From Udeniomyces pyricola (lineage: Eukaryota; Basidiomycota; Tremellomycetes; Cystofilobasidiales; Mrakiaceae), in NCBI GenBank assembly GCA_039545295.1, contig BCIK01000032.1, positions 125,282 to 189,281 of the forward strand: 64,000 bases of DNA, written 5' to 3'. Below the pieces are notes generated by a model that did no database searches, had not been told where the DNA came from, and worked only from the letters and a program-made list of their open reading frames with translations. Numbering within the stretch: the stretch's first letter is position 1; each line of letters begins with the position of its first letter. The position numbers were made by a program, and so were the translations under genes. This document shows, in pieces, positions 9,602-58,239 of this stretch.

Positions 9602-12600
9602 ATGTCCGCCTCCCCCATCCATCGTCAAGAGGACGATGGTCTCAAGAGGAAAAGGTTCGAATCACGTTGTCCATCACTCTCTCCTCGATCCGTTGCACCC
9701 TGCCCTGGCAGTCTCAACTCTCCTACTAACGACGCGACCTTCCGGTCTTCCATCCGACCTGTATTCCATTGTCCTGGCCATAGATCCCCTTCACCTGCTC
9801 CTCGGGAGCGTGCTCAATCCCCACCAGTCCAGCGCCGACGATCGCTGTCCCCTCCTGCAGTTCCGATTCCCAGAGTTCAAGATGTCGACCCTGCCCGTCG
9901 ACGCGAGCGGGAACGCCAACTTGCGCTCCAACAAGCCGAGCGCGAGCTGCTCGCCAACGACCCTACTACTTCGTCATCCTCTTCTACTGCCCTCACGACG
10001 ACGACGACGGGCAAAGGTACCGGAAATGACGGTTTTGATGCTGCTGCCGAGTTTGCCAAGTTGACGGCTGGCAGTAGGAGCGGAGGCACGTACATCCCCC
10101 CCGCCAGACTGAGGGAGATGCAGATGGCCGCGTCAGAGGACAAGGCGAGCCCAGAGTATCAAAGGCTCGTTTGGGACGCGCTCAGGAAGAGTCTCAATGG
10201 TCTCATCAACAAGGTCAGTCAGGCTGTCGATGCTGTATCGGGGCTCACCGGAACTAGATGTCGGGCGAGCAAAGGCGCGTCTTGGGCAGGCGTGGCGAGA
10301 CGAGAAGAGGATGAATTGGGATCGTGTCGTTTGATGAAAACGTATGGGCCTGACAACCAGGGTAATGCTGACCGACCTCTTTCGTTGGTCCTTGTACCCT
10401 TGCCGTTCTGTGATGTGATGGTGCGAGTCTTTCAGGTCAACGTTGCCAACATCAAACATGTCGTTCCCGAGTTGTTTGGCGAGAACCTCGTCCGAGGTCG
10501 AGGTCTCTTTGCGCGGTCCATCATGAAGGCCCAAGCAGCCTCCCTGCCTTTCACCCCCGTCTTTGCTGCTCTCATTGCCATCATCAACACCAAATTGCCG
10601 CAGGTTGGAGAGCTCGTGCTCACCCGACTCGTCAGTCAGTTCAGACGAGCCTTCAAGAGAAACGACAAGGTACGTTTAGATCCGGCATCAAACCCAGCCT
10701 GTCCAACTTGAACCTTTTGCTCTTCGTCTCGCACTTCTTGGCTTCTGTAGCCCATCGTGGTCCGAGAGCAGGTCAACGGTTGTGAAGGAGAGCATCAGTG
10801 TCGCCAAGTCATATGAACGAATGCACGACTCATCGCCCACCAAACCCTTGGCTTCGTGCCTTCTTGTTCTTCCCTTGCAGACTGTTTGTCTTTCGACCGC
10901 CTCGTTTATCGCTCACCTCGTCAATCAATCCGTCGCGCATGAAATCGTCGCTCTTCAAATCCTCCTCCTTCTTCTCGAAAACCCGACGTCCGACTCGATC
11001 GAAATCGCTTGTGCTCTCACGCGCGAAGTCGGCGCCTTCCTCACGGAGCATTCCCCTAAGCCCAACAATCTCATTTTCGAGCGATTCCGAGCCGTCCTGC
11101 ACGAAGGCAACATCGAAAAGCGAGTCCAGTACATGATTGAAGTCCTTTTCCAAACGAGGAAGGATCGATACAAGGACAATCCCATCATGCAAGAGGGACT
11201 CGACCTCGTCGAGGAGGACGAACAGATCACCCACCGCGTCTCGCTCGAAGACGAACTGAAGGTTGAAGAGGGCCTCAGTAAGTATTTTACGAGAAGCTCT
11301 GGCTCTGACAGTATCGTTCCGTTCTCACTCGGTATCTTCCTTGGGGAGGTAAACCGGTTATCCAAGGTACATCACTTATTTGATTTACCCCATCGTTCAT
11401 CTCTTTACACCTACAGATGTCTTCAAGCTCGATCCCGACTTCATTGCGAACGAGGACCGCTACAAGCAGATCAAAGCTGAGATTCTTGGTGACGAAGATT
11501 CGGACGACGAAAGCGGTTCCGGCGGTAGTGGCAGTGAATCGGACGACGACGAGAGCGACGACGAGGAGTCGGCAGCTGGTGAGTGACAACGTGCCATCTG
11601 AAGTTTTCTTCTTCTCTTTTTGTTTTCCTTGTTTCTCGTTAGCTCCATCCAGCGCCTGTTTTACCAGATTTGTCTCTGCCGGGCGGATGATAGGAGCGAG
11701 CTCTGAACTGACTTGCGTGTCAATCTTTTCGTGTGTTACTATGTTCCCATCCCAACAGTCGTTCCCAACAAGCATGGCATTCAAGACATGACTGAGACTA
11801 ACATGATCAACCTCCGAAGGACCATCTACCTCACCATCATGAACTCGGTTCGTCTCAGAGCAGCAGCTCCGCGTTTTTTGTTCCATCTTATATCTATCAA
11901 ACCGAAGCAACACTCATGCGATGCCATTGTTCTTGTTGGTTGTTCTTGTTTCCATCCGTCATTTAGCTCACCTACGAAGAAGCCGTCCACAAGCTGTTGA
12001 AGGTCCAGATTCAAGAGGGCATGGAGGTACGTACCAGGATGAGTGGGGCGGCTTAGTTTTTGCATCACTATCATCCATCATACCCAAGGGGTACTCATCA
12101 TGATGTGTTTGGTTTCCTTGACTAGATCGAGCTCGTCAACATGGTTATCGAGTGCTGCTCTCAGGAACGATCGTACTCTGCCTTTTACGGTCTCATTGGC
12201 GAGCGGTTCTGCAAGCTCAACCGAACCTGGTGCGAGGCATTCGAGCTCGCTTTTTCCAACTACTACGAGACCATCCATCGATACGAGACGAACCGATTGC
12301 GCAACATTGGTCGGTTCTTTGGTCACCTTCTCGCCTCGGACGGGATCTCATGGGGTGTCTTCCACGTCGTCCACATGAACGAAGAAGAAACGACATCGTC
12401 AAGCCGAATCTTTATCAAAATCCTCTTGCAGGAGATGACGGAGGAACTGGGCGTCAAGAAGATTGCCCTTAGGTTTGGCGAACCGTCGATGCAAGGCGCT
12501 TATACCAACGTTTTCCCGATCGACAACCCCAAGAACACGAGGTTCTCCATCAATTACTTTACCTCTATCGGCCTCGGTGCCGTCACGGAAAAGATGCGAG

Positions 12601-13607
12601 AACATCTCACCGTACGTCCGCTTTTTTCCTTGACGTGTTTTTTTTTCTCCTTGCAACACCCACCTCCCTCCCCCGCTGGACGCTCTCTTTCTCTCTTTCT
12701 GGGGTCGATGCCCATGAAATTGAGGGTGAGGGGGGGGGGGTGCTTGTACTTTTCTCTCGGCGAGTGCCCTCAAAACTGACTTGCTCGTATCGTTGCGCCA
12801 CGCCTCTCTCCATTTCCCCCCTCTTCCCCCCCCCCCCCCTTGAACTTCTTTCCCACCTAACTCTAGAACATGCCCCGACTCATCCTCGAACAACGTCAAA
12901 AAGCGCTGGAAGCCGAATCATCCGACTCGGACTCCTCTTCGTCCGACTCTTCCTCCTCTGATAGCGACAGCGACAGTGACAGCAGCAGCAGTTCCGACTC
13001 GGATTCAGACTCGGATTCTCGGGGTTCGTACTCGTCTCGTTCGCGTTCGCGTTCGCGTTCGCCCCCGCGTGGTGCGAGCCGACGTCGAAGGGATTCATCG
13101 ACGCCGCCTCCTCGACGAAGACGAAGGGGTTCTTCCGTCTCGTCCGATGCGTCATCGGTTAGGGCACCTGTTAAGCGAGGAGGAGGAGGCGGTAAGCGAG
13201 TGGATTCTCGCTCGCCTTCGCCACCGCCGCTTCCTCCTCTTTCTCGACGAAGGGACGTCGATTCGCGATCGCCCCCTCCTCCTCCTTCTGCTGCTCGATC
13301 GACTGGTGGTGGTGGTGGTGGTGATGGAAGGGCTCGACAAGATGATACGCCGCCTTTGAGAAGACGTGGATACCGGGATGATTCGCGCTCGCCCCCTCCT
13401 CCGAGGAGGAGGCGACAGAGTTCGACACCTCCTAGGGCCGGAGGAGGTGGTGGAGGTAGGGGTGGAAGGGATGATACACCTCCGAGGAGGTATGGTGGCG
13501 GTGGTGGTGGTGGTGGTGGTGGTGGTAATGGGAGAGGAAGGAGGTACGATTCAAGGGATCGAAGCTCGAGTAGGAGTAGGAGCCCGCCGAGGGGTGGAAG
13601 GAGGTAA
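9602..13607 (+). CDS. CWC22: Pre-mRNA-splicing factor CWC22 with RS-rich tail
   Basis: Spliceosome component, active before step one; in animals it also loads eIF4A3 to start the exon junction complex. Exons: 9602-9654, 9784-10213, 10436-10669, 10881-11277, 11417-11578, 11759-11847, 11967-12026, 12126-12611 and 12867-13607 (2652 nt, 883 residues). After a Ser/Pro/Arg-rich head (to about residue 65) comes a MIF4G domain containing YIPPARLR and FIAHLVNQ, then an acidic Ser/Asp linker in exon 5, then an MA3 domain with [10 protein letters not shown] and [10 protein letters not shown]. The last exon encodes MPRLILEQR followed by Ser-Asp runs, RS/SR dipeptides, CCTCG-type repeats and Gly runs up to the stop. 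The first intron (9655-9783) is 129 nt without an in-frame stop, so a naive ORF reads through it, but a perfect TACTAAC at about 9724-9730 and the clean RKR-SPSP join support removal. Confidence 0.93.
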
Positions 13608-24750: not shown

Positions 24751-27700
24751 TTACTTCCTCACCGCCAAGACCAACCCATCCCCACTCTTCAAGTTCACAC
24801 TCGCCAGCGTTTGCTTATTGTTCAACACCTTGTTGCTCGGCGGCGGCAGATCCAACCGCATCTTGGACAGTGGCAGCGTCGTCTTGGTCGCTTCTTGAAT
24901 CTTCTCCCGGAGGAGGGCGATCGTCGTCAGAGGTGGGAGTGATGGAAGGGTGATGCTGTTTTTTTTTTTTTTTTCGAGTCCAACGAAGAACAGAAAACGA
25001 GAAAACGTCAGAACCAAACAACAGGTCACTCAACGCAGACTCCAATTTCGATGCCAAATCCGCCAAATCTCTGGGAAGAAAGAGATGAAGAAAAAAAGCA
25101 AGGGGGAGAAGGGCGACGTACGTTGATCCATCCAGCTCAGGTTTGCCCTCGACCGTCGGAAGGGTGATGATGAGGCTGACAGGGTAAGGGTTCATGGCAA
25201 GCCACGTCGGTTCCTGAATTGCCCAACGACGAACGGGAGAGAACGCGTGGAAGGGAGGAGGGGTAAAGAAATTGGGAAAGCAGGGGAGAGAAGTGGAGAA
25301 GGCGGGCAGGAGGGATAGTCATACGGGAGGCATGAATCGTAACAATGAGGCAAAATTCGTCAGTATCGTTCTGGAGATGGATTGTTTCAAGATGACCTCC
25401 AATCCTAACCGCCCAACCAAGCTGCATTTACGCCCTTCTCCCTTACATCATCGACCTCTGTACGTACGGAATGGAAAGTGCCCTCGGGCAACGTAATGTC
25501 CAACTTCTGTTTCTTCGCCTCTGGCGGTCCCGCCTCAGCCTTTTCGTCCTCGTCTTCCTCCCTCGGTCGTCCTCCAGAAACGCTTCCGGCCTCATTCGCC
25601 GCCGGCAACGACGAAGCGGCGTTGATGGCACTGCCGTTCCCATTTGAAGACTCGTCGTTCTGCTGCTGGTCGTCTTGTTGATCTCTCGCCGCAAGCGCTG
25701 CGAGTCTCGAAGGATGGATGCTCGGTGGGGCACCTTGAGGGATAGCGCTCATTGGCATAGGAGCGGAAGAGTACGTTCCTGGGGCGGCAGCGGCAGGAGG
25801 AGGAAGAGCGGGGGAAGGAATTGAAGGAAGAGACGCAGAAGGTCCTGAAGGAGGTCGAGCGGCTCCTCCTGCTCCTACTCCCGAGAGAAGAGGGTTGGGA
25901 GGGAGAGTGGAAGGAGCAGATGAGGAAAGAGCGGAAGGACCTGTGGGGAGAGAAGGACCGGTTGGGAGGTGGTGCGGATTCGAAGGACCAGTGGGCAGAC
26001 CGCCAGCGCCAGTGGGAGTCGCGGCGAGAGGGGTTGCTGATTGGGGACCGGGACCAATGTTGGGTCCAGCAGTGTTTTGAACCCTAATCAGCCAGAAAGA
26101 GAGAATGCACAGAAACGAACAAAAGGCGATGAGGATCTGCTCTCCACAAGGCGAAGGAGGTTGGAAAGGAGAGGGAAGAGAAAGGCCGTTGTGAAGCAGA
26201 GAAGACAACTCACATTGATAGTCCTTTCGCCCTGTGGATGGCCTCGATCTGTTGATCCAAGTTGGCGCCCGTCTGGAACTTTTCGACAGTCGTGTGCTTT
26301 GAGGAGGTGTGACCGTCCCAGATGATACGTTCTTTTTCGCGACGACGGGCGAGGTCTTCCTCTTCCTGACGCTTGCGCTTGTCTTCGTCCGTGTCCGTAC
26401 CGAACATGTCGGTTCGGGCTGATGCGAGGGCTCGGAGCGAGGCGGAGACATCGGCACCTAACAGACAAGAACGAAGAGTAAACAGAAAGGAAACAGAAGA
26501 GAGAAGGAGGGGGGGGGAGAGAGGCATGAGAGAGCATGAGCAAACCAAAACACTCATAAGCTCATCGCTTCCGACCCGCCTCGCCTCGCCTCTTTGGATA
26601 GCTCCTCGTGACCACTGCTAGGCGATGAACGTACCTTTCTGAAGCATTCCCGCCTGAGTCTTTCTCGCGTCGAGCTCCTGTTTTCTCTCCTTCCACTTTG
26701 GGTCGAGGAGCTCGATTCGAATATGCTCCGTGATCTCGTCGATGGGGATTGCTTGTCCACAGTAGGAGCAGATGGTGGTTTGCACTTGAATTTGAGGCTG
26801 GCGAGCTGGGTCGAAGTATCGGAACATGGAAAGGCAACAGAAGCGACAAGGAAGATGAAGGGTGACGTAAGTGATCATAATGTTGCCAGGTAAATCGGGG
26901 CATTAAGCTCGGTTGGAAACCACAGACAGAAAGAAACGGATCAAAACGAAAGGCGAGACAAGGCCAAGGCCCAAGACGTACATTTGGGAACGTAATCCTT
27001 TCGAATCTTGATGGCAGCCTGCGGCTGCTTTTGAACCTCTTTTGGCTTTTCGACTGGCTCCGGCTGAGGTGCCGCCTGAGCAGGAGGGGGTTGCTGCTGA
27101 GGAGCACTCACTGCCGGCTCCGCACTCTCCTCTTCCTCCTCCTCCTCCATATCCATCTCCATATCTCCGTCTTCCTCCTCTCCTCCTGCCGGAACATCCT
27201 CGGTGTCCTTGCCATCGTTACCAGCGCTTCCCCCCGGTGCGACCTCACTCTCCATCACCATCGATGCCATCTTCTTCTGGGCGAGCGTCATGCTCTCCAT
27301 CTGGGCGACCGAGCTCGGTGCGGGAAGCTCGAGCGATTCGTCGGCCGACGTAAAGTCAATCGTCTCGACCACGACAAAGTCTTGCCAGTCAATTTGTGCA
27401 AACGCCACTGAGTCGTCGATGTTCCGCAGATAAGAGGACGGGACCAAGACAGAAGTTGCGAGGAAGAACAAACGGAGAAAGACGCGTACATGTGTCGAGG
27501 AGAAAGAAAATGATGGGGTCGACAAGGGTCAGCTTCACCTCAGCCCACACAGAATGTAACTGGTGAAGAGTAAGGGAGGGTTACGGGAGGTGGGGAAGCC
27601 ACACCACGAGTAACGACGAATACATACCTCGTTGAGCCTCCTTTGCCTCTTCCCTCTTCTTACTCCTCTCACCCTTCCACTTCTCCCAATCCGCCCTCAC

Positions 27701-35025: not shown

Positions 35026-38000
35026 ATGTGCGGTATCTTCTGCTGCTTCAACCGACAAGGCGACATTGGTGCCTTCCGACCCCGTGCCGTCGCACTCTCC
35101 AAGAAGCTTCGTCACCGAGGGCCTGATTGGTCGGGATGCTACATGTCTCAGGACACCATCCTCTGTCACGAGCGATTGGCTATCGTCGGTGTTGGTGAGT
35201 TTGGATATCGACCCTTTACCGCCTGCCTGTCTGCCTGCCTGCTCGCTCTTTCACGACCTCGGCTTTCGTTTGGCCCGACCCTTGCTGCCTACGTCAGTCG
35301 TTCGATGATGTGGCTGCACAGATTAGCTCTCTATCGGTCTTGAGACAGGGGATGAATTTCCTTCCCTTGAACTCTGATCAGACGCGGTCGACCAGGCGCC
35401 GGCGGGCAAAACGGCGGAGGAGCTAAGGGGAGGCGAGGGCTGGCTGAGTCGGACCTTTGTCGTCGGGGCAGAGACCGAGAATGACTCGTTTCCTGACCGT
35501 CTTTCTTTCCTTTTCCCTTGGCGTGCCTCGTCCTTTACCATTTTCTTGTCCCAACACTTTTTTTTTCTCCCCTTGGATTCACCTACCGTTCTATTATACC
35601 TCACACTCACATCTAATACACAGACACTGGCGCCCAGCCTTTGGTCTCGGACGATGGCAAGATCATTCTTTGCGTCAACGGCGAAATCTACAACCACCTT
35701 GACCTTCGAAGCCACCTCAAGAACCCCGCCGTCTTCAAGACTCACTCCGATTGCGAAGTTATCATGCACCTCGTTCGTAGCTTACATTCAGAACTCGGAG
35801 AACCAAGAGAAAATGCGAGGAGAGAGAGAGAGAAAGACGAAGCAACCCACCTACTTTTTCTGCTTGTCGTTTCTTACGTGTCAAATCCCTTTACCCTTCC
35901 TCTTTCCCTTCTCTCTTTTCATCATCTGGTTCGACCTCCCCTCCAGTACAAGGAGTACGGCACCGACCTTTGCTCCAAACTCGACGGCATGTTCTCCTTT
36001 GTCCTCCTCGACACGTCCGTGACCCCCTCCCGAGTGATTGCTGCTCGTGACCCGATCGGAATCACCACCCTCTACCAAGGTTGGCACTCGTCTGCGCCCG
36101 AGACCATCTTCTTCGCGTCCGAGCTCAAGGCGATCCACGAGGAGTGTGACAACGTTCGCGCGTTCCCTCCCGGTCACGTTTACGACTCGGCTACCAAGGA
36201 GACGACGAGGTACTACCAGCCCAAGTGGTGGAACGGTGACAAGGAAGGCGAGGAGTTCGTCCCCAAGGGCGAAGCTGATCTCGCGGTCCTCCGAGAATCC
36301 CTCGAGACGGCCGTCAAGAAGCGACTCATGTCCGAGGTCCCGTACGGTGTTCTTCTCTCGGGTGGTCTGGATTCGAGTTTGATTGCGGCCATTGCCGTCA
36401 AGGAGACGGAGAAGGTTGCCAAGGCTCAGGTCCTCGCGAGGGAGATGGCTCTCAAGAGGGGTCCCTCGGGAACGGCTACTCCGGATGTCGATGGTGAGTT
36501 GCAGCGATGCCGGTATATCGACGAAAGAAGCAAGGGTGGAGGGTAGGGAAGATGAAGAAAATGACGAGAGAGGGTATAAGGCAAGGGGGGGGGGGTGTTA
36601 GGGAGTAGATAGTGTAACCGAGTAAAAGCGAAGCTTCTTTGCTGACCCGTCTTCGACCTTTTTTTTTTAAGTCGCCCGCGAAGCTGCTCTCGCCACTTGG
36701 CCCCAAGTCCACTCGTTTGCTATCGGTCTCCCCAACTCGCCCGATCTCCTCGCCGCACGCAAAGCGGCCGCTTTCCTCGGCACCATCCACCACGAGTACA
36801 CTTTCACCGTCGAAGAAGGTCTTGACGCTATTGAGGACGTCATTTACCACCTTGAGACTTACGACGTCACGACCGTTCGAGCCTCGACGCCGATGTACCT
36901 CCTCAGCAGGAAGATCAAGGCTATGGGTGTCAAGATGGTTCTCTCAGGAGAGGGAAGTGATGAGATTTTTGGTGGTGAGTGTTTTCAGAAGGGGGTATGA
37001 ATGTCGAGACGGGTTTTTTTCTCTTCTTTGGTTGGGTTTAGCGGGTTGAATGAATCGATTCTGACGTTTTTGTTCTTTTTTTTATTTTCTTTTTTTGTCG
37101 TTTCCCCCCTCTGACACCTCTTAATCGATCCCCTCCCCCCCCCTTTTCGATTGTCTTCCCATAGGCTACCTCTACTTCCACGCCGCGCCCGACGCGCCAG
37201 CGTTCCACCAAGAGCTCGTCAAGCGAGTCAAGAACCTCCATACCGCCGATTGCCTCCGAGCCAACAAGTCAACCATGGCTTGGGGTCTCGAAGCCCGAGT
37301 GCCGTTCCTCGACAAGGTCTTCCTCGAAGACGCCATGGCGATCGACCCGAAGTACAAGGAGTTTGGAAAGGGCGCCGAGCAGAAGGTCGATGAGGATGGA
37401 AAGCCAATGATGGAGAAGGTGCGTGGTTCTTTTGTTCTTCACGGTTCTTGATTTTCGCCTTTTTTTGTGCGTGTGTGTGTTTGGAGGGGAGGGAGGGATT
37501 ATATGGACAGACAAGCTCGGGTTCAAGGTACAGACGGAGAAAGAGAGGGAGGGAGGGAGGGAGGGACGGTCGAAGGCCAGACAGGAAGATGAATAGAAAG
37601 GACAGAGGAAGGAACAGCATATCCATACCACAAACAACACCGATAGTACCTTGGAACCAAGCGTTGACCCCCCTCTCCCCCCCTCCCCCCCTTGTCTTTT
37701 TTTTTTCTTCTTCTCCCTCATCCCTCTTCGCTTCTTCCATCTATTCATCCTTCCTCAGTACATCCTCCGTAAAGCGTTCGATTGCAACGGACCCGACGGC
37801 AAGCCGTACCTTCCCGCGTCGATCCTGTGGCGTCAAAAGGAGCAGTTCTCCGATGGCGTCGGGTACTCGTGGATCGATGGCATGAAGGAGCACGCCGAGG
37901 CCGCCATCAGTGATGATGCGTTCGCTAAGGCTGGGGAGCGATGGTCGTTGGATACGCCGTTCACGAAGGAGGCGTACTGGATTAGGGAGATCTTTGAGAG

Positions 38001-54028: not shown

Positions 54029-57000
54029 TTAGGCTCTGCTAGATCGGGAAAGCTGGTGATCTTGAGGACGAATGATGCCTTCGATGGGACGGTCCGTACC
54101 GATCGAAGTGACCTGATGGATAGGTGAAACGAACAGGTGCATCATGACACAGGAAACATGAGGATCCGAAAGGGGAAAGAATGAGTTGGTAGAAAGAGAA
54201 AAAAAAAAAAGCAAAGACAGAGAGAGAAAAACATACCGATCCACGTTCGTCATCCATATGTCGGAACGCATACCAAACGTAGCACCCAACGACGGCGTTA
54301 ACGACTCCAACGCCGATAAACGGCTTGATCAAGTCCGGATCGACAAGCGAAGGGGTGATGATGATGCCGATAGCGGATGAGATAGCCGAGGTGAAGAGGA
54401 CGATGGCAAAGACCAGAGCTTTCATTCGTTGAGGCGAACGCGTGATGGCGAGTTCGAAAGAGGCAACGGCGATGAGGAGTTCGGCAATGGCTATGAAGAA
54501 AAAAAAACCCCCGAGGAAGCATGGCGAGAGGAGGAGAAAAGAGAATGGTTAGAGGAATGAAGACTTCTGGACAAGGGGGAGGGGGAGGTGGGGGGGGGGG
54601 GGGGGGGGGTTTAGACAGGGGTGAACAAGGAAGAGAGATAAGTTCGCACCAGGTAAGATGTAGAGCGGAGCCTGAACCCAGAGCGAGATCGGCGACGGCT
54701 CGGGACAGTTAGTCGCGTAGTATCCACATGGCCTGATGCCAAGGAAAAAAGGACGAGAAAAAAAAACAGAGCAGGGAAAAGGAAAAAAAAAAAGAAGGAT
54801 CGTTCGCGTCAGTCCAAACAGGCAGATGAGATCGGGTGGATAAAAAGACGTCAAGACGAATCCCAATCCGGAAAAAAGAATGAAAATCCTAAAACGAAGA
54901 ATGGACTGGTAAGGCGACAGCCAAAAAAACTCACGACGTTCGGTACACTTCGTACTGAAGGATGGCTCCTGCGACCATGGCAAGCACGCAGAAAAAGTAC
55001 CCGACACAGATTCGCTTGACAGGAGAAAAATCGATTCCTCTCTTGCGAAGGGCAGGGTTGATGACGAAGCTATGCAAAACACAAGGTTGGTGCGAAGAAG
55101 AGTGGACGATGGGAGGAAATGGGAAACAAGTCAGTATATGGGTGATCATTATCTGCCTCGATTTCGTCTCGTTGGTCAGAAGAAGAAGAAGAGAAAGAAA
55201 AAAAGACGATGCCTCACTTGAAGATAGGCAGCATGATGACGAGGGTGAGTCCGTTAAAGTTGCCCAACAAGTCGTTAGGGACTCCGTTCGAGCGCATCGA
55301 TCCACCCATGCTCTCAATGATGGTATCCAAACCTCCATCCGCCAGTTGGTACACAGGCATGAAAGCGAAGATCTGACGTGATTTGCATCAACCGAGAGGA
55401 GCGCGAGGAGATTGGAGATAGAGAGCCAAGCCAGATCAAGGTCAGGTTAGCCATGCAAGATCCGCTCGACAGTCAAGATCCGAACTCAAATCACACAAAT
55501 CCAAGCGAAAAAAGAGAGCAAAAAAAGGGGGGGGGGACCAATACTGACTTTGCAAGCGGACAAGGTTCGCCTAATCTCCGTCACAAAGTCATCGTCCCAA
55601 TCGACCGAGCTCCTCAAGGTTCCCTGAGCGGCCATGAATGAAGGCTTAGCCTTGGCCCAGAAGCCCTCGCTATCGCGCTTGAGGAGTTGCTTGATGCCAG
55701 GGCCGGCGAGGGCGGTCTTGATGACTCGGCAGGTGTCGGCAAAGACGGATCGCTTGGGAGGAATCTTGACGAGACGCTTGCTGACCCACCAAAGGTTGAG
55801 AGGCATCTATAAGTAGAAGGAAAAAAAAAAACACGGGAATCGAAAAAAGGTAAGGGTTTGAGGATTTTCGATTTTCTCACGGATGGACCGTCAACCACAC
55901 ATCGAAACTTGTCCCTCGGGCTGGTGACTTACGAGAAGGAAGATGATCATGGGTGGAAGCCAAGCGATCCAGTATCCCTCGTACTTGGCGAGGTAAGACG
56001 AAGAGATTCGCATAAACGAGCCAATGTTGATAGCCCTAAAAGTAGTCCGGTAACATCCCCCAACAGACTCGTGTCAGCCGACAATTTGCAGAAGAACGTT
56101 TCGAGAGAGAGCTCAGAGAGTCAAATGGAAAAGGGAAATAAAAGAGAGCAGATATAGGTGGGTTTACACACCAGTAGTAAGTCGAAAGCATGGAAGAGAT
56201 GGTCAACTCTGGGTCCTCAATGACTCGCTCGCCAGAGGGAAGGGTCTTGATGCGTTGACGGTTTAGAGGTGATCTGATGCCAAACAACCATGGATGAAAC
56301 AAGGAGAACAAGAAACGAGTCAGAAGAGGGAAGTGTTGAGAGTTGGCATAGATTGACGTGTAGTTAAGGTTTAGTTTTTTTTGGTCGTGAGATGATGGGA
56401 AACATAGACTGACTGGTCAGTGACGAGAGGACCGATGGTCGACTTGATAGCTCCCGTTCCAAGAGCCAACAAGAACAGGGAAATGGAAAATGGGATGACG
56501 GCTTTGCCAGTCGCGATGACTTCCTAAGAACGACAAAGAAACACGAAGGATAATCAATCGGAGAAGTAAAAAAAAAAGGTTCAACCAAACGTCGAGCATA
56601 GTCAGCTCGGGTCTCATCTAGCGATAGATGGATGATGGATGATATGAGGCTCATCTCAAAAGGGGAGATGAGGAGAGCGGGAAGACCTCGCTTCGAGGTC
56701 AGACTCACAGGGATAGCAGAGATAGTGAGGAGGACATGGGCGATTCCCGCAATGATGGTTCCATAAATGATCATCTTGAACTTGCCGGTGTACGTGTCGG
56801 AAAGAACGCCTCCCAAGATGGGGAGAGCGTAAGCGAGGAAGTTGAAGGTTTGTTTGATGCCTTGAGCGGCCCTGATACCCAAACCCAAAGCACCGGCGGA
56901 TCCTTCGGGGTTGTTGATAACGTTACCAGCGACGGAACCGGCAGGAAGATGTCGTTGGATAAAGTTGTTGAGCGTGCCACTGCAACCGTCTGAGAAAGAA

Positions 57001-58239
57001 AAAAAAAAACAATTCCACAAGGGTTAGTCGTTTAAGCTCTTTTGGTCGGTTGGACACATTCTGACCCTCGATTCGAGGCACGTTTGATGGAGGGCATCGA
57101 GCGTGTTTCCAAGAACTGATCAACAAGAATAGTTTTGATAATGACGCACAATAACTAGCTCGTTCAGCCAATTCACACTGCATGTGCCGTATGGTTTCAA
57201 AGCGCAAAGTTGTCAATCAGCTACCAAGACGACCCATAACGCAGACATGTCAACCAGACACCTCAAAAACGGCATAACAAGGAAGAAATCCCTCACGAGG
57301 CTGCGGAAAACAAAGAAGGAAACAACCAGCAAGAACCGGCCAGACGTTAGCATATTGGCTATTCTCTGGGAGTCAAACGATCTTGTCGGCCCTGCTCATG
57401 CGTTGCTCCCCGAATATCTCCCATCACGTTCCAAGTAAAGGACGTCCATCGGCCTCGATAATTTTCCCCAGCGAGCACCAGACGGACGTGTCCGAGCAGG
57501 AAAGCGAGATGGGATCTTTGTTATCCTTTTTGGAAAGGAAGAGAAACTGCAAGGTCAATCAACTTACCAAACGACGTAAGCCACCCAAGACACGCTAGCC
57601 GAAACCAATCTAAATCAAAAACAACCCCCCAAAAAAAAGAAGAATACAAGAAGACATTCCCAATGTTATTATCAGCCTATATGCTCCTCATCTCGTTCGT
57701 TCGTTTAACCAAACGAATATTTGAAGGGAGGGAAGGGGGGGGGGGGGAATCCAGAAAAGAAACGTACCGCAACGTAGCTTTCTCTTCCGGTGTAGGTTCC
57801 CGTCCATCAGCGTCTTCCTCATCAAACGACGGGGCCAGTTCTCCTCCATTCAACAACCCCTTCTCCCTCTTCTCATCATCCACACTCGATGTCGCTTCCA
57901 ACGGGCTCTCGATCTCCTTCGTAGGCTCGACGATCTCGAGGAGTGGAGGCGCGAGCGTGTATTCGGATGAAACCTCGATAGGGGCGATGGTTGGTGGTGA
58001 TGCAGAGTTGACGACTAGAGGGTCAAAACGTATAAAAAGGAGTTTTTTCCCAGAAATTGTCGTGTTGTCAAGGTTGATTGGGGATAAGGAAGACGTGGTG
58101 GGGCATTCGAGTTCCGAACGAAGTTGGTCGAAGCGAGGATATATCGGAAGAAAGTAGGCACGGAGCGTCAGAACCTTGGATGATCGGTCAAGTTGGACAT
58201 CAAGAGAGGGGGATGGATGTGCAGAAGGAATGTACCCAT
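54029..58239 (-). CDS. PTR2: Proton-coupled oligopeptide transporter (POT/PTR2 family)
   Basis: Imports di- and tripeptides with protons across the plasma membrane. The 5' exons are 58236-58239 (4 nt, ATGG), 57768-58014, 57568-57609, 57297-57300 (4 nt), 57150-57177 and 56709-56989; later exons continue to the TAA at 54029-54031. The acidic N-terminal tail ends PTPEEKATLR; joining the small exons yields LRLVSASVSWVAYVV then CLCELAERASYYG, the family's first helix with the E-x-A-E-R motif. Other signatures are LAYALPILGGVLSDTYTGKFK (helices 2-3), YYWAINIGSF (helix 5) and many hydrophobic segments down to YVWYAFRHMDDER. The C-terminal tail is short and polar. The 4-nt start exon is tentative; the next in-frame Met would be at 57901 and would shorten only the disordered tail. 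Confidence 0.9.

Follow-up and report, generated by a model that had tools for sequence, protein, structure and literature searches.

This locus raises the question of how two exons of a peptide-transporter gene, which lie 390 nt apart and do not join in frame, are connected in the mRNA. The gene is located in a 64,000-nt stretch of Udeniomyces pyricola DNA (the window, by which the whole stretch analysed is meant) and runs from about 58240 to 54029 on the minus strand. It was modelled with 14 exons and 13 introns, GT-AG throughout, in a single open frame that ends with a TAA at 54029. Transporters of the POT/PTR2 class move di- and tripeptides with protons. The predicted protein matched PF00854 over most of its length (189.4 bits, E 1.2e-55, model positions 1-383 of 392) and carries, directly 3' of the residues C-L-C, the sequence ELAER, an instance of the ExxER motif that we take to be the helix 1 motif of the family. 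By domain and motif alike the gene is classed as a POT/PTR2 peptide transporter, its activity being predicted. Its best protein match was found in Mrakia frigida (52% identity).

Several other frames were seen in the window. On the minus strand, a frame at 26848-26636 matches PRP21_like_P (PF12230, E 5.8e-15), a family of pre-mRNA splicing factors, and is presumably SF3A1-like. On the plus strand, the region 9602-13607 contains a frame that matches MIF4G marginally (10782-11477, 31.9 bits vs a cut-off of 30.8). On one side of it lies a frame that has no match in Pfam (9602-10711), on the other a Ser/Arg-rich frame (12870-13607); we assume that this region resembles the spliceosomal protein CWC22. 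An asparagine synthetase-like frame with GATase_7 and Asn_synthase lies at 35641-36546, also on the plus strand. Rfam at gathering thresholds gave no match within the window.

The interval and its 4-nt segment

The features of the transporter gene are given below; a slash marks an exon border, and C33 and C28 are two further POT genes of the genome.

58239-58236, minus strand: proposed start exon, ATGG/gtacat; this proposal would add one 221-nt intron to the model
57768..58014, minus strand: N-terminal coding exon; the acceptor at 58014 is a proposal
57568..57609, minus strand: upstream exon, 42 nt, LVSASVSWVAYVV, with 3' end TG (...GTC GTT TG); the C33 counterpart is also 42 nt
57301..57567, minus strand: intron 5' of the microexon, 267 nt, GTAAGT...CCGCAG; position common to the C33 and C28 genes
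57346..57350, minus strand: branch-point-like CTAAC, its second A (57347) 46 nt 5' of the microexon
57297..57300, minus strand: predicted microexon CCTC, TG/C CTC, residues C-L of helix 1; sole AG/N4/GT in the 390-nt gap
57178..57296, minus strand: intron 3' of the microexon, 119 nt, GTGAGG...TGCAG; position common to C33, absent in C28
57216..57220, minus strand: branch-point-like CTGAT, its A (57217) 39 nt 5' of the 28-nt exon
57150..57177, minus strand: downstream exon, 28 nt, CELAERASY and the first base of the next Tyr codon; the C33 counterpart is also 28 nt
56709..56989, minus strand: coding exon 3' of the 28-nt exon, 281 nt
54029..56523, minus strand: span of the last nine coding exons to the TAA stop, with GT-AG introns and one open frame
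56523-56414, 56273-56172, 56035-55933, 55806-55549 and 55372-55218, minus strand: first five of these nine
55069-54935, 54732-54650, 54490-54237 and 54112-54029, minus strand: final four of these nine

Possibly the exon that holds the start codon has just four coding bases; ATGG joined to 58014 gives MVVNSASPP. In the C33 gene an ATGG/gtgagt is likewise found upstream (L008:1784-1787).

The sequence-only reading had placed an internal microexon, CCTC, in the 390-nt interval; the interval, the letters and the coordinates of CCTC and of its flanking splice sites were found as it had given them. Direct joining of 57568 to 57177, i.e. skipping of CCTC, was rejected: it breaks the frame, as had been claimed, leaving it exactly 4 nt short, and the resulting frameshift leads to a stop 82 codons past the junction codon. 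Where a loss of 'about two residues' had also been put forward, what is missing is exactly 4 nt of a three-residue stretch. The junctions read TTTG/gtaagt at 57568/57567, ccgcag/CCTC/gtgagg at 57300-57297 and tgcag/TGTGAA at 57177, CCTC being preceded by tttgttttccgcag and followed by gtgagg. The 28-nt exon (57177-57150) starts with TGT GAA TTG GCT GAA CGA, so that inclusion of CCTC gives TG-C CTC TGT GAA, or C-L-C-E, and the protein reads YVV-C-L-C-ELAERASYYG with the frame restored. CCTC would thus contribute the third position of a Cys codon, followed by a complete Leu codon, a short way 5' of the ExxER motif of helix 1. It is required for the reading frame and for the conserved protein sequence, as expected of an ultrashort microexon (<=15 nt), and it is flanked on both sides by introns of the spliceosomal GT-AG type with branch-point-like motifs. 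At least one CTNAY occurs in each of the 13 introns of the gene. When each site was left out in turn, the acceptor of CCTC came fifth among the gene's 13, and its donor shared tenth place. The acceptor of the 28-nt exon is weak (-7.7 bits), which counts equally in every model.

To enumerate alternatives, all frame-restoring stretches from 1 to 58 nt long that follow an AG and precede a GT or GC were listed. The earlier claim that CCTC is the sole 4-nt segment able to repair the frame was confirmed for GT donors, CCTC being the only AG/N4/GT in the 390 nt; if GC donors are allowed, three further 4-nt segments appear in the interval (CAAC, CAGG and AATA). Extension of the upstream exon by 4 nt creates a stop (TGG TAA), and the downstream exon offers no AG before the position 4 nt upstream of TGTGAA.

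AG/N4/GT segments are common in the window, with 463 counted on its two strands. From this density about 1.4 are expected per 390 nt, and about 0.16 that also encode a family-like residue pair. On these grounds the argument from this single locus is suggestive and not conclusive. When splice-site strength is added, the summed score of CCTC was the first of all 463 (15.5 vs 14.8 for the runner-up), with matrices built from just the gene's other sites, 12 donors and 12 acceptors. The next three segments by score (17355, plus; 60977, plus; 26638, minus) showed no sign of a microexon by eye, the one at 26638 looking like the end of an ordinary coding exon.

Paralogues and homologues at the site

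At least five POT genes were found in the genome: the window gene and those referred to as C33, C28, C23 and C20. Of the four paralogues, C33 has a 4-nt exon at this position, within a series of 42-, 4- and 28-nt exons that repeats that of the window gene in different letters:

contig C33: 42-nt exon, ending ...TTCGTTATTTG/gtgagt
L008:2349-2352 (contig C33:144848-144851): microexon, ctctctcacag/TATC/gtaaggat
contig C33: 28-nt exon, tctcacag/TGCGAGCTTGCGGAACGGATGAGCTATT/gtgagt

Joined, these exons read LVSADLTWVAFVI-C-I-C-ELAERMSY. TATC is the sole AG/N4/GT in its 191-nt interval, and its splice sites are weaker than those of CCTC (of the 463 window segments, 21 equal or exceed the score of TATC). 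Comparison of the two genes gave 16 DNA matches, ten of them collinear and 71-80% identical and six in a poly-C stretch, while the introns flanking the microexon showed no similarity beyond that of shuffles (z about 1 each). The shared microexon is therefore not the trace of a recent duplication. Because the sister gene has a 4-nt exon at exactly the same place, the CCTC exon is almost certainly real. We regard it as close to certain that CCTC is a genuine 4-nt coding exon between GT-AG introns of 267 and 119 nt, one predicted from genomic DNA to be included as a rule in the POT/PTR2 mRNA.

In the C28 gene the first intron lies at the same place (...GTCATCTG/gtaggt) and the next exon begins with CGCTTGTGAACTTGCT, in which the 4 nt CGCT are fused to it, reading C-A-C-ELAER. 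This arrangement, in which the 4 nt belong to the next exon, supports the microexon from the other side. C28 (L009:1966-2024) is without the second intron and without the next one, both of which are present in the window and C33 genes. It is as if these two neighbouring introns had been lost together, or had been gained in the other lineage. C23 and C20 are intronless at the site and read LALCIVELAER and LALCIIECVER, with the same three-residue spacing, so that they serve as length markers for the stretch. In a tree of 125 sequences the window gene grouped with C33 and then with C28 (support 1.0 each). Mrakia frigida joined next (support 0.45), and C23 and C20 were found elsewhere. The paralogue proteins in this tree were pieced together from matched stretches and are approximate; as the C33 row is without the microexon region, the grouping of the window gene with C33 is independent of it.

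Conservation beyond this genome was assessed at the protein level. The search scored 7995 candidates and yielded 328 homologues; the residue counts cover the 120 listed, of which four (P0020, P0036, P0047 and P0100) are partial at the site. Exactly three residues separate the second V of YVV from the E of ELAER in all 116 complete homologues among these 120; P0031 has an insertion just 3' of the stretch. The first residue is C in 108 of the 116 and A in the other 8; in second place, L occurs 72 times, I 20 times, V 12 times and other residues 12 times. The residues completed by CCTC, C and L, are thus the commonest at both places among the listed homologues, in line with the earlier claim that the joined protein follows the helix 1 pattern of the family. 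The third residue, C, which comes from the downstream exon, is rarer (7 of 117 listed homologues). In the 117 listed homologues that reach the ExxER columns, the first E is present in 116, the second E in 115 and the R in 115.

As the PF00854 match starts 3' of the microexon, it says nothing on the latter. Among solved structures, 19 distinct POT relatives were found at E up to 0.001, all of them distant. The best-matching stretch of the best one, 7s8u, begins 3' of helix 1. The helix 1 alignment with 7pmy (SLC15A2), which has one residue fewer near the site, is insignificant (-3.7 bits), so that it speaks neither for nor against the microexon.

Splicing, rival explanations and origin

U2AF/U2 and U1 can hardly occupy sites 4 nt apart at once. 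Since they are unlikely to be bound together at this distance, the two introns would most likely be spliced out in succession, through intron definition. CCTC would be used constitutively.

That the 390 nt form one ordinary intron, in a gene that is a pseudogene or from which an error of sequencing or assembly removed 4 nt at the junction, would be mechanically possible in so far as both flanking exons have GT-AG sites that can be joined directly. It is nevertheless hardly credible: the other exons join in a single open frame to the stop, C33 has an identical 4-nt gap that is filled likewise, and an intron of 390 nt would have nearly double the length of the largest among the model's other eleven (124-202 nt). 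Equally slight is the chance that a different short exon fills the gap. Candidates exist, namely CAAC, CAGG and AATA with GC donors and the 7-nt GTGTCTG at 57261 with a GT donor, but CAAC would give C-N, CAGG C-R and AATA a stop, and GTGTCTG would add one extra residue. In none of the 116 complete listed homologues is N or R found in the second place, and all have three residues. The homologue alignment thus rules out the 4-nt GC-donor segments and the short ones with a different residue count, and longer segments would add residues that occur in none of these 116. The internal microexon proposed earlier is borne out by the frame, the number and identity of the residues, the strength of the splice sites, the branch-point motif and, above all, the 4-nt exon of C33.

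A further possibility, compatible with a genuine CCTC exon, is that the exon is regulated, its inclusion acting as a putative on/off switch for peptide uptake. Four nucleotides are not a multiple of three, so that skipping leads to an early stop, and a 20-nt switch microexon has been described in Xlr2 of Trichoderma virens (PMC11121469). The splice sites of CCTC are good, however, and the 4-nt exon of human MPC1 is constitutive (PMC9929638), which makes such regulation improbable.

As to the origin of the microexon, the paralogues differ in intron content, and this suggests that one coding stretch came to hold two introns 4 nt apart, rather than that a frameshift was repaired. The event may be placed in the common ancestor of the window gene and its sister C33, or earlier. 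The series of paralogues would fit the gain of a second intron in that ancestor; it would fit equally well an older pair of introns, followed by the loss of the second and the next intron in C28. A more far-reaching reading, which we put forward as tentative and on balance doubtful, is that the 4-nt exon, which may be the shortest so far known from a basidiomycete, is common to two diverged paralogues, that the five genes with none, one or both introns show its origin by introns 4 nt apart and not by frameshift rescue, and that its inclusion could gate peptide uptake because skipping truncates the transporter.

Known ultrashort exons

Ultrashort exons as a kind are already known, and the sequence-only reading is outdated where it places them at the lower limit of what a spliceosome can define. 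Exons of 1 nt have been described in Fusarium (PMC12940212) and in plants (PMC8831610), and one of 4 nt in human MPC1 (PMC9929638); the comparisons that follow draw on parts of these papers. Exon 2 of MPC1 is a constitutive 4-nt exon for which 67 bp of the upstream intron and 6 bp of the 5' splice site suffice. It depends on the upstream 3' splice-site region, and the authors argue for exon definition (PMC9929638). CCTC is likewise 4 nt long and not a multiple of three, and its good acceptor and the CTAAC fit this dependence. Unlike CCTC, the MPC1 exon is human, lies between long introns and has exon definition shown by minigenes (PMC9929638); the fungal exon lies between introns of 267 and 119 nt and is predicted from genomic DNA. 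An exon of 4 nt is also known from human TNNI1.

A fungal case is the 1-nt exon of CYP621A, an ascomycete P450 gene of Fusarium, which was confirmed by reads and for which the authors suggest the rescue of a lost base (PMC12940212). It resembles the present case in that joining in frame needs an ultrashort exon in a conserved motif, that an intronless relative serves as length marker, that the intron is longer than usual and that the exon is conserved in orthologues. It differs in its proposed frameshift rescue (PMC12940212), as the POT paralogues fit two introns 4 nt apart. Very short coding exons in a basidiomycete are known from the P450 genes of Phanerochaete chrysosporium, the shortest reported in the part of that paper used here being 6 bp (PMC1184071); an 8-nt microexon in a P450 of this species is cited in PMC12940212. 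Plant microexons (<=15 nt) are often unannotated and are conserved across homologues, with support from RNA-seq and RT-PCR, and 1-nt exons keep the frame in APC11 and VPS55 (PMC8831610). They share with CCTC the conservation across homologues, the keeping of the frame and the tendency to be missed in annotation, but differ in host and in being backed by RNA (PMC8831610).

Among the matches listed from the fungal, basidiomycete and peptide-transporter literature, most subscription journals being outside its scope, none concerned a microexon in a POT gene. The matches listed for peptide transporters together with microexons held nothing fungal and came from Arabidopsis alone. What appears to be new is thus a well-supported 4-nt exon in a fungal POT gene.

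Ordinary gene finders would likely miss the CCTC exon, as had been anticipated, and a predictor that does so would break or distort helix 1 next to the ExxER motif, which is a warning for annotation. The set of paralogues, in which the 4 nt form an exon of their own, are fused to the next exon or lie in a stretch with no intron, constitutes a natural series for the origin and persistence of exons below the size that exon definition normally requires, and also bears on the handling of splice sites that lie 4 nt from each other.
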